From: Rhodospirillaceae bacterium
GTDB taxonomy: Bacteria; Pseudomonadota; Alphaproteobacteria; TMED109
Length of the DNA stretch: 34,621 bases
Assembly (NCBI GenBank): GCA_902571315.1
Contig: CACGBM010000007.1
Span: 1 to 34,621 of the forward strand
Direction: 5' to 3'
This document shows positions 30,636-34,621 of this stretch, in pieces (the stretch's first letter is position 1; each line of letters starts with the position of its first letter). Below the pieces are notes generated by a model. That model had not been told where the DNA came from, ran no database searches, and saw only the letters and a list, made by a program, of their open reading frames with translations. The position numbers were made by a program, and so were the translations under genes.

Positions 30636-32066
30636 TTAATTATCAGGATCAATGTAACCTGATAAACCTCTTACATTTTCATTAAATTTAAGATTTTTAT
30701 GTATTGGAGGAAAAGCTCGTTGTCTACAGTTTTCTCTTTCACAAGTTCTGCAAGATAATCCTGTAGGTACAGAATATTTACTATCTAAATTATCTGCATA
30801 AATGCAATCTTTACTATGACTAATATCAAAACCTAATCCAATAGAAAAAAAAGTTTCTGGTGAGCGATAATCTCCTATTCTTTTGCTCACAGTTCTAGCT
30901 AGACATACAAAAGTTTTTCCATCTAACATTTTAGATAATTGCACTTTTATTTTTCCAGGATTTAAAAATGCTGTATAGACATTCCATCTAGGACAAGCAA
31001 CAGAGTATCTTGGTATTTTTAATCCAGATAAAGAAAATCTTTTCGACACATTGCCAGCAATATCAACTCTCATAAAATGAAAGGGTATTCCTTTACTACC
31101 TGGTTTTTGTAATGTAGTAAGTCTGTGACAGACCTGCTCAAAAGAAGTCTCAAATTTATTAGAAAGCATATCAATGTCATATCTGTGTCTTTTAGCATAT
31201 GTTAAAAATTTTTCATATGGCATTAATAAACATGACGCAAAATAATTTGCTAATACTGTTTTTCCTAATGCTAATGTATTGCTATCACTAATGCCCTCTT
31301 TTTTGAGCTTATTCTCAATACTATCTTTGGCTACGATTAGGCCTATTTGATGAGCTATTAAAAACTCCTTACTCTCCCTTGAAAGAGCGTTAGAAATTTT
31401 TAAAAGCTTTTTTTCAATTATATACTTCTTAACAAAGTTATTTTTTAAATTTTCCTCTTCGAAATCTATTTTAATAGAAAATTTCTTATTTAAAAAATCC
31501 ATCATATTCCTGAGTCTATTTCCATTCTCAAAATCAATTAAAGATAATTCTTTTTCTGAAATTTCTTCAATATCTGAAAAGTAATTATTATTTGATTGAA
31601 GCATGTCTGAGATAAAATCAGCGCTAGATCTTTCTGAACCCACAGTATCAGAAATTTCTTGCTTTACAGAAATCATTTGATCGGCCAGTTCACCTAAATC
31701 TTTTTTATTTTGCAAGTATTTATCATACAAAGTTCTTACTGCATCACCTACTATTGGAGAATTTAAAGAAAAATCTTTAATGTCATTGTTTTTTAACTCA
31801 TGCTCATCAAATATATTATCGCTAAAAATATCCATCAGATCTGAGTTTAATTGTTTATTGTAGTCATTTGTTAATTCTGATAATTCTATATTAAATAAAC
31901 TTGCTACTTTTAGAAGTAATGGAACTGTAATACTTCTTCTATTATTTTCTATGAGATTGATATATGCTACAGATATATCTAATTTGTTAGCTAAGTCTCT
32001 TTGAGTTAAACTTTCACCTCTTCTTAATCTTCTAATTACTACGCCTAAATTTGAACTTATTTCCAT
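30636..32066 (-). CDS. ScfR-type XRE regulator of short-chain fatty-acyl metabolism
   Basis: A 476-residue regulator with an N-terminal helix-turn-helix at about residues 9-62 (GVVIRRLRRGESLTQRDLANKLDISVAYINLIENNRRSI), an ImmA/IrrE-like middle domain without an obvious HExxH zinc motif, and a C-terminal short-chain-fatty-acyl-regulator domain with Cys439, Cys442 and Cys447 (CRTCERENC). This is the ScfR family (RamB, PrpR, PccR, MccR), whose members sense acyl-CoA and control isocitrate lyase, methylcitrate or propionyl-CoA carboxylase genes. None of those targets are in this window. The gene is divergent from a structured RNA-like element and a PsiE gene, and its own start region is covered by four TGTAAA boxes, suggesting autoregulation. 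Confidence 0.9.
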   Translation of the reverse strand: MEISSNLGVVIRRLRRGESLTQRDLANKLDISVAYINLIENNRRSITVPLLLKVASLFNIELSELTNDYNKQLNSDLMDIFSDNIFDEHELKNNDIKDFSLNSPIVGDAVRTLYDKYLQNKKDLGELADQMISVKQEISDTVGSERSSADFISDMLQSNNNYFSDIEEISEKELSLIDFENGNRLRNMMDFLNKKFSIKIDFEEENLKNNFVKKYIIEKKLLKISNALSRESKEFLIAHQIGLIVAKDSIENKLKKEGISDSNTLALGKTVLANYFASCLLMPYEKFLTYAKRHRYDIDMLSNKFETSFEQVCHRLTTLQKPGSKGIPFHFMRVDIAGNVSKRFSLSGLKIPRYSVACPRWNVYTAFLNPGKIKVQLSKMLDGKTFVCLARTVSKRIGDYRSPETFFSIGLGFDISHSKDCIYADNLDSKYSVPTGLSCRTCERENCRQRAFPPIHKNLKFNENVRGLSGYIDPDN

Positions 32067-32068
32067 AA

Positions 32069-32104
32069 TTTACAATATTTTACATGTTTACAAAATTTTA
32101 CAAT
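32069..32104 (-). promoter_or_regulatory. Array of four TGTAAA boxes, probable operator of the ScfR gene
   Basis: Four 8-base boxes, each containing TGTAAA on the minus strand, lie at 32069-32076, 32079-32086, 32087-32094 and 32097-32104. On the plus strand they read TTTACAAT, TTTACATG, TTTACAAA, TTTACAAT. Within each pair the boxes are two bases apart (10-base period); the two inner boxes abut. They overlap the expected -10 to leader region of the regulator gene; a promoter TTGGTA (32124-32129) and TATATT (32102-32107), 16 bases apart, fits. ScfR proteins bind paired 8-base TTTGCAAA-like sites, and these differ by one base. Confidence 0.6.
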
Positions 32105-32146
32105 ATAATTATTATCAAAAAATTACCAAATATTCAAACTTTTTAC

Positions 32147-32175
32147 TTGATTATTGTAAATAAATTTACTATTAT
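32147..32175 (+). promoter_or_regulatory. Sigma-70-like promoter upstream of a structured RNA
   Basis: A TTGATT -35 box at 32147-32152 and TATTAT -10 box at 32170-32175, spaced 17 bases, point right. Expected start is near 32182, the base of the 15-bp inverted repeat. It is one of the best-spaced hexamer pairs in the window. It could drive a small RNA, the psiE leader, or both. Confidence 0.55.
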
Positions 32176-32179
32176 ACAA

Positions 32180-32242
32180 AAGAGTTTAGTAATTATATCA
32201 TTACTCCTCCCTAGTAACAATATTCACAATTACTAAACTCTT
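32180..32242 (+). ncRNA. Candidate small RNA: nested hairpin with CUCCUCCC loop
   Basis: A perfect 15-bp inverted repeat, AAGAGTTTAGTAATT at 32180-32194 and its complement at 32228-32242, encloses a 33-base loop. In the loop TTACT (32201-32205) pairs with AGTAA (32213-32217), leaving a 7-base CCTCCCT loop. The string CUCCUCCC would be presented on the RNA, complementary to Shine-Dalgarno sequence, as in alphaproteobacterial CcsR/cuckoo small RNAs. There is no strong U run after the stem, so the 3' end is unclear and it may instead be the psiE leader. On the minus strand the loop reads AGGGAGGAGTAATG, a ribosome-site-like string with a two-codon frame. Confidence 0.5.
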
Positions 32243-32281
32243 CTCTTTAAAAAATAAATTAAATCTGCATAATATTATATA

Positions 32282-32713
32282 ATGGAAAATGGTATTGAAA
32301 AAAAAGCAAATCAAATAGGCAACTTTCTAGTTAGATCTTTTCATTATCTGGCTTTATTTGCAATAGGCTCTGCTATTGTATGGTCAGCATTCTTCACTTT
32401 TTTAGATTTATTAGAAAAAACTTCTGCAAGTATAGAAGATATTTTATTGTTATTTATATACTTGGAGTTAGGCGCAATAGTAGGTATATATTTTAAAACT
32501 GATCATATGCCTGTAAGATTTTTAATTTATGTTGCTATAACTGCATTGACTAGAATGTTATTGGAGTATTTAAACGAGTGGCATAACTCACCTACAGGAC
32601 AAATTGATTATGAAATATTAATTATTTGTGGAGGTATAGTCTTCTTAGCTATAGGTATATTTATTCTAAGATATTCCTCTCATAATTATCCTTCTAGCTC
32701 TAACAAAAAGTAG
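32282..32713 (+). CDS. psiE: PsiE-family inner-membrane protein
   Basis: A 143-residue membrane protein of the phosphate-starvation-inducible PsiE family. Four helices are predicted at about residues 20-42, 53-70, 78-97 and 108-128. The conserved patches are LFIYLELGAIVGIYFKTDHMPVRFLIYVAITALTR, kept in order here: LELGAIVGIYF and MPVRFLIYV. Function is unknown even in E. coli. There is no Shine-Dalgarno site before the ATG, so a structured or nearly leaderless transcript is possible; the inverted repeat described above ends 40 bases upstream. No Pho box was seen. Confidence 0.85.
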   Translation: MENGIEKKANQIGNFLVRSFHYLALFAIGSAIVWSAFFTFLDLLEKTSASIEDILLLFIYLELGAIVGIYFKTDHMPVRFLIYVAITALTRMLLEYLNEWHNSPTGQIDYEILIICGGIVFLAIGIFILRYSSHNYPSSSNKK

Positions 32714-33897: not shown

Positions 33898-34040
33898 ATA
33901 TTTGACCTCTAAAGTATCTTATTTAAAAAATAGTTATGCAGTAATATAACTAAATCATTTACATAATTTACATTATTTACAATTTATATACCAATTATCA
34001 AAAAAAGTCGAATAATATAAACATATATCTGTAAATAGTT
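33898..34040. promoter_or_regulatory. Intergenic region with TTTACA triplet
   Basis: A 143-base gap upstream of the 93-residue exported protein. Three copies of TTTACA begin at 33958, 33967 and 33976, a regular 9-base step, followed by TTGATA (minus strand) nearby. This resembles the TGTAAA boxes at the ScfR gene. Three more TTGTAAA copies begin at 34053, 34061 and 34070, inside the end of the DMT gene. No gene is visible in the gap. Confidence 0.4.
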
Positions 34041-34621
34041 TTACATATACAATTGTAAATTTGTAAAGTTTGTAAAATTTATAACAAAAACTACACCGCA
34101 CACAACTATAGATACGGATAGTATTTTTTTTAGATTAATTTCTTCTTTAAAAACAAAATATCCAAAAAAAAGAGATAACATTATTCCTACACCTCTTTTG
34201 AGCGACTCTAACTCAGCAACGAAAACAAATTGTAAAGCTTTTAATTGAATAAATGTAGTTAAAAAACCTAATATAATTACAGAAAGAAGTATCACGTCGA
34301 CATGCATCTTTTTTGTTAACATTGATGGGTTTTGTTGTGTAGTTAAAAATATTAATGGAAATAAAATCAACATTCCTAAGGACTGCAAAAAACCATGCAA
34401 ATATAGATCTGTATATTTTAAACATTCCTTGTCTAAAACAGGAGTTAAACTCCATATTAGTGAAACTATTAAAATATATAATAAATTTTTATTAAGAAAA
34501 ATATTATAAATCGTAGATAAGTTTTTATTAGATTTGTATTGTGAACTATGCAGAGTTAAAGACCCAAATACTATAAATAACATACCTAAATATTGAAAAA
34601 ACCCTAATTCTTCATTTAAAA
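34041..34621 (-). CDS. DMT superfamily transporter (EamA domain), N-terminus cut by window edge
   Basis: The C-terminal 193 residues or so of a drug/metabolite transporter. The frame is open from the window edge, so residues before the internal Met at 34583 are part of the protein: NEELGFFQYLGMLFIVFGSLTLH is the end of the first EamA repeat. The second repeat runs from NKNLLYILIVSLIWSLTPVLDKECLKY through four to five helices to KEEINLKKILSVSIVVCGVVFVINF. The C-terminus NFTNFTNLQLYM is a short duplication caused by TTGTAAA repeats in the DNA. Substrate unknown. Confidence 0.85.
   Translation of the reverse strand, partial: LNEELGFFQYLGMLFIVFGSLTLHSSQYKSNKNLSTIYNIFLNKNLLYILIVSLIWSLTPVLDKECLKYTDLYLHGFLQSLGMLILFPLIFLTTQQNPSMLTKKMHVDVILLSVIILGFLTTFIQLKALQFVFVAELESLKRGVGIMLSLFFGYFVFKEEINLKKILSVSIVVCGVVFVINFTNFTNLQLYM

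Follow-up and report, generated by a model that had tools for sequence, protein, structure and literature searches.

A conserved hairpin with an anti-Shine-Dalgarno loop facing scfR: a probable new small regulatory RNA of uncultured alphaproteobacteria

A hairpin with an anti-Shine-Dalgarno (anti-SD) loop lies between scfR and psiE and is conserved across three genera within a single alphaproteobacterial family. It probably represents a new small regulatory RNA controlled by ScfR. In the window (i.e., the whole 34.6-kb stretch of DNA analyzed), scfR encodes a RamB-like short-chain fatty acyl-CoA regulator (positions 30636 to 32066, minus strand; assigned by Pfam domains and NCBIfam), and a psiE-family gene for a small membrane protein (32282 to 32713, plus strand; PF06146, E = 1.4e-18) lies on the other side of the hairpin. 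The order scfR (minus strand), promoter, hairpin, and psiE was the same in all eight hairpin-bearing genomes. We consider it reasonably probable that the locus encodes a single-hairpin small RNA (sRNA) that is expressed from its own promoter, is repressed by ScfR, and pairs in trans with ribosome-binding sites through its loop. To our knowledge, few trans-acting RNAs are known in small-genome uncultured alphaproteobacteria. If our reading is true, a metabolite-sensing ScfR is linked to translation control via an sRNA in such organisms, and the RNA represents a new family for Rfam.

Structure, promoter, and conservation of the hairpin

A sequence-only reading of this DNA had described a promoter (TTGATT, 32147 to 32152; a 17-base spacer; TATTAT, 32170 to 32175) leading into a perfect 15-bp inverted repeat with a nested TTACT/AGTAA hairpin that exposes CCUCCCU, and all of these elements are present on the plus strand. 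The arms of the outer stem lie at 32180 to 32194 (AAGAGTTTAGTAATT) and 32228 to 32242 and pair perfectly. The inner hairpin, UUACU-CCUCCCU-AGUAA, occupies 32201 to 32217 (stem arms, 32201 to 32205 and 32213 to 32217; loop, 32206 to 32212) and contains the anti-SD core CUCCUCCC at 32204 to 32211. The same reading had judged a repeat of this kind unlikely to arise by chance, and our counts agree with it. A search for perfect 15-bp inverted repeats with arms separated by at most about 60 found this one alone in the window and six in 1.68 Mb of a relative (G010). The fold energy of 32170 to 32290 was -18.8 kcal/mol (z = -4.8), which none of 200 shuffled sequences equaled, and the 67-nt RNA from G32182 folded by itself with a z score of -7.3.

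The promoter scored 9 of 12 in our scan, and shuffles of the AT-rich region also gave about three promoter-like matches. Since AT-rich DNA yields many such matches, the promoter claim rests on conservation: the segment from 32141 to 32178 was 91.9% identical among eight genomes of three genera. The transcription start predicted from the promoter spacing falls exactly where the conserved stem begins. We infer an RNA of about 65 to 70 nt on the plus strand, starting near 32182 and extending to about 32248 with an uncertain 3' end (covariance model R1, 87 bits). No canonical terminator was found after the hairpin in a scan of the locus; a pyrimidine-rich tail 3' of the stem (32243 to 32248, read from the aligned sequences) is a possible weak terminator. 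There is no ATG from 32182 to psiE in the window, so this interval holds no small open reading frame (ORF) with that start.

A psiE search recovered the matching scfR-psiE gap in relatives, and whole-genome searches then found the unit, with scfR divergent from it and psiE downstream, in 8 of 28 family genomes (G000, G001, and G003 of genus g1; G007 of g3; and G010, G014, G017, and G020 of g6); searching at the level of the order yielded these same 28 genomes. The 17-nt core (UUACUCCUCCCUAGUAA) that makes up the inner hairpin was identical in all eight. The sequence-only reading had named a covariance search with synteny and an analysis of compensatory changes as ways to check its proposal, and a lack of conservation of the stems and loop as part of the evidence that would speak against it; when both analyses were run, the scfR-hairpin-psiE unit with its stems and loop proved to be conserved. 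The covariance model matched strongly once in each of the eight RNA-bearing genomes and had no credible match in the remaining 20 genomes of the family, which include incomplete ones. Among 385 genomes sampled across the class under stricter filters, it recovered the copy of the window alone, and Rfam gave no credible match for the hairpin either at the gathering score or at E values up to 10. Two-mismatch matches of the core elsewhere in the family genomes lacked the stem and were dismissed as chance. An exact 17-mer in a viral contig was likewise attributed to chance, as it lacked the outer stem and lay within a large phage ORF whose sequence reads like a terminase. Members of the family have been deposited as Rickettsiales, Pelagibacterales, and Rhodospirillaceae (L009, L010, and L011), and their public taxon names are thus inconsistent.

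RNAalifold applied to the alignment gave an 18-pair structure identical to the one drawn independently by hand, in which 98.6% of the alignment cells of the eight genomes were paired. Seven two-sided compensatory cells were observed versus a mean of 1.8 in shuffles, and none of 500 shuffles reached seven, although these shuffles leave relatedness in and the sequences are few (eight genomes, four of them from one closely related genus). Sliding the stem partners out of register abolished the signal. Three outer-stem pairs had changed on both sides (U-A/C-G, A-U/U-A/C-G, and C-G/U-A/A-U), and the covariation support for the outer stem appears to be good but not overwhelming. The inner stem never varies, and covariation therefore says nothing about it. 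When five of the sequences were folded, one rearranged the inner hairpin and still left the loop unpaired. An unpaired anti-SD seed, CCUCCCU, invariant in eight of eight genomes, sits within a predicted RNA structure whose stem carries compensatory pairs.

The four g6 genomes have a G-U at one stem pair (a single change inherited by four). Read on the other strand, it would be A-C, which favors the plus strand as the RNA. A minus-strand RNA, whose loop GGGAGGAG would mimic an SD sequence and is followed by ATG in some genomes, was considered and rejected, since the ATG is not conserved and the G-U pair favors the plus strand. We also weighed a DNA element instead of an RNA, namely, a palindrome bound by a protein or one that is mobile (REP or MITE-like). 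At the outer ends of the arms, the bases GAGTTTAG/CTAAACTC do not vary, as expected of a protein-binding palindrome; however, the best-conserved part is the nonpalindromic loop, the compensatory and G-U changes preserve stem pairing, and the element occurs as a single copy per genome. On the covariance model search, this single copy led us to reject a mobile palindrome, and a DNA element of any kind seems very improbable. The conserved hairpin is very likely an RNA.

Relation of the hairpin to psiE

The sequence-only reading had offered, as an alternative, that the hairpin is a leader of psiE. Such a cis-acting 5' untranslated region (UTR) would control psiE expression or stability through its stem, or through an RNA or factor binding the C-rich loop. 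This accords with the position of psiE as the next gene downstream on the same strand in all eight genomes, with the lack of a terminator between the two in our scan, and with the different upstream sequences of psiE homologues that lack the hairpin in genus g5. However, the distance from the stem to psiE varies (41 nt in g1, 37 nt in g3, and 23 nt in g6), and the 41 bases of this gap are only 34.8% identical across the eight genomes; judging from the alignment, the promoter and hairpin are conserved and their join to psiE is not. Besides, psiE lacks an SD sequence ahead of it in all eight genomes, so that the loop has none to mask.

Hexamers resembling a promoter, located 6 to 8 nt before the psiE start in most of the genomes, also argue against the leader. 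They read TTTAAA-16-CATAAT in the window (32246 to 32273, plus strand; promoter scan) and are weaker in G007; in the four g6 genomes, TATCAT or TATTAT lies 6 nt ahead of the start codon. They suggest a possible separate promoter giving a near-leaderless psiE mRNA, in which case the hairpin would be a separate gene. The leader has thus become the less likely reading, and we regard it as rather unlikely. A combination of both roles would have the transcript processed or partly terminated into a hairpin sRNA and otherwise continuing through psiE, as with sRNAs that are freed from a 5' UTR. It fits the conserved gene order and the absence of a clear terminator, but psiE seems to have promoter-like hexamers of its own, and we think such a double role quite improbable.

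Outside the family, the best psiE relatives among the matches listed included many from Pseudomonas, at 52 to 57% identity, and in other sampled alphaproteobacteria psiE was mostly missing or matched at about 30%. Horizontal transfer of psiE is possible on these comparisons.

The loop, its candidate targets, and known small RNAs

In the sRNA reading, which we prefer, the long closed stem would protect the RNA and display the invariant loop, which would pair in trans with purine-rich ribosome-binding sites of the GGGAGG or GGAGGAG type and thereby block translation, probably with the assistance of Hfq. The 3' end of 16S rRNA in this clade reads ACCTCCTT / GGATCACCTCCTTT, and CUCCUCC overlaps its anti-SD sequence. 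G010 encodes an Hfq-like protein, of which 60 residues align with E. coli Hfq at 40% identity. The anti-SD loops of NfeR1 and the seed of SisA silence mRNAs at translation start regions (PMC10746234, PMC12559287), and by analogy the new RNA should pair with GGGAGG/GGAGGAG sites in trans. No site of this type occurs before the start codon of either neighbor, scfR or psiE, in the window, and local targets are therefore unlikely.

Targets were predicted in G010 versus part of G003 (about 0.4 Mb) plus the window. Four joint hits had energies at or below -14 kcal/mol, and two of these seem to lie inside genes. By comparison, 30 shuffled C/U loops gave 1.07 such hits on average, and several of them gave three. 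This excess is small and too weak to support a claim, and we treat the candidates as leads only. The two credible conserved ones, with sites in both G003 and G010, are a sodium:solute symporter (SSF in Pfam; UUAGGGAGGAUUAUAUG / UAAGGGAGAGUAAAUAUG; 88% identical protein) and a [2Fe-2S] oxidoreductase small subunit, named from sequence alone, with GGGAGGAAAUAUG in both genomes. In G007, G010, and G020, the pattern GGGAGG-N-ATG was more frequent than the reversed control, and in the others hardly or not at all; this excess may simply reflect ordinary SD sites.

CcsR carries a C-rich anti-SD loop motif, and the sequence-only reading had proposed that the hairpin is an anti-SD RNA that may belong to the CcsR and cuckoo (CIN1 locus) RNAs, which it resembles in having such a loop in an alphaproteobacterial context. 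A hairpin RNA with a promoter of its own between ScfR and psiE is upheld by synteny, the invariant loop, and compensatory changes, whereas the family membership is not supported. CcsR/cuckoo RNAs have tandem CCUCCUCCC hairpins, but the new RNA has a single hairpin with ACUCCUCCCU and a sigma-70-like promoter. CcsR1-4 share a transcript, driven by an RpoH promoter, with ccaF1, which encodes a DUF1127 protein, and undergo processing by RNase E (PMC10253847), whereas DUF1127 (PF06568) was found in 0 of the 28 family genomes, some of them incomplete, with a positive result in one control genome, E. coli.

In alpha-r14 of the Rhizobiales (NfeR1, SmelA075), the sRNA gene is repressed by its partner transcription factor, NtrC, as we propose for ScfR in the present case, and the hairpin loops bear the anti-SD motif CCUCCUCCC, eight of whose nine letters are present in the new RNA. 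However, alpha-r14 has three hairpins with identical motifs (PMC10746234, PMC3927594) rather than one long stem, its context differs, and no Rfam match was obtained. Similarities also exist to alpha-R8 (SisA-D; suhB, MmgR; RF00519), whose seed UUUCCUCCCU shares UCCUCCCU with the new loop and which has a role in carbon status in Caulobacter (PMC12559287). Yet in alpha-R8/SisA the seed is single stranded after a weak hairpin and a Rho-independent terminator is present (PMC12559287), whereas here the seed is in a loop and no terminator was found; RF00519 matched neither the locus nor any of the 28 family genomes. The new RNA may thus act like alphaproteobacterial anti-SD loop sRNAs, but it departs from the named families in those of their defining features that were tested, and membership in cuckoo/CcsR or alpha-r14 is not supported.

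ScfR, its putative operator, and isocitrate lyase

The ScfR of the window has ScfRs, Peptidase_M78, and helix-turn-helix (HTH) domains in Pfam, its best NCBIfam model is RamB, with a score below the cutoff, and it probably senses acetate-type metabolites. An operator-like inverted repeat, TTGTAAA-TAAA-TTTACTA, lies within the spacer of the RNA promoter (32154 to 32171), and TTGTAAA-N4-TTTACTA is found there in eight of eight genomes; the sequence-only reading had not included it. We infer that the divergent RamB-like ScfR would bind this repeat, most likely repressing the RNA, and acyl-CoA status would thereby set the RNA level. The position of the operator in the spacer suggests repression, although this is a guess, as in Paracoccus RamB acts as an activator and has direct boxes (PMC10370305). 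Two near-identical boxes, TTTACAATATTTTACA and TTTACAAAATTTTACA, whose starts are 18 bp apart, precede scfR itself (32069 to 32102) and are proposed to be autoregulatory ScfR boxes; their TTTAC repeats are conserved only in part in other genomes.

Nongenic TTGTAAA-type repeats were few in G010 (1.676 Mb read), the one near-complete RNA-bearing genome in which this rarity was counted: the RNA promoter, a second ScfR/isocitrate-lyase pair, and two others. One of the latter is 31 bases before a called ORF start and is probably inside the true gene, and the other lies at a place with no called gene.

In Paracoccus denitrificans, scfR (RamB) faces a malate synthase-isocitrate lyase operon with binding boxes between them (PMC10370305). 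The sister genera g2, g4, g5, and g8 likewise keep scfR divergent from a gene that, judging by its translation, encodes isocitrate lyase (in g4, a short stretch separates the two), and TTTTGTAAATATTTACAAAA-type repeats are located between these genes in the AT-rich sister genera. In the RNA-bearing genera, by contrast, the divergent unit is the RNA plus psiE, which occupies the place of isocitrate lyase facing scfR; isocitrate lyase, where found, is elsewhere, and no ScfR-type repeats are upstream of it. We tentatively suggest, as a possibility well short of an even chance, that a RamB-type acyl-CoA sensor has been rewired, with direct control of isocitrate lyase lost and the sRNA as its main remaining output, passing carbon status to many mRNAs via their ribosome-binding sites. 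ScfR thus faces isocitrate lyase in some of these genera and the RNA in their sisters, a contrast that opens such regulatory rewiring to a direct test.

Several further observations concern these genes and repeats. The displaced isocitrate lyase genes (L178, L180, L181, and L183) share a conserved upstream region that contains TTGACA. At about 1500 to 1620 of L286 (G010:C24), a second ScfR (39% identical) is divergent from a second isocitrate-lyase-like gene, and direct and inverted TGTAAA repeats lie in the intergenic region. In the window, three TTTACA repeats at 9-bp spacing (TTTACATAATTTACATTATTTACA) are found at 33958 to 33981, and TGTAAAGTTTGTAAA is at 34062; these elements are upstream of a minus-strand ORF of 93 amino acids that looks secreted, and their half-sites are similar to those before scfR.
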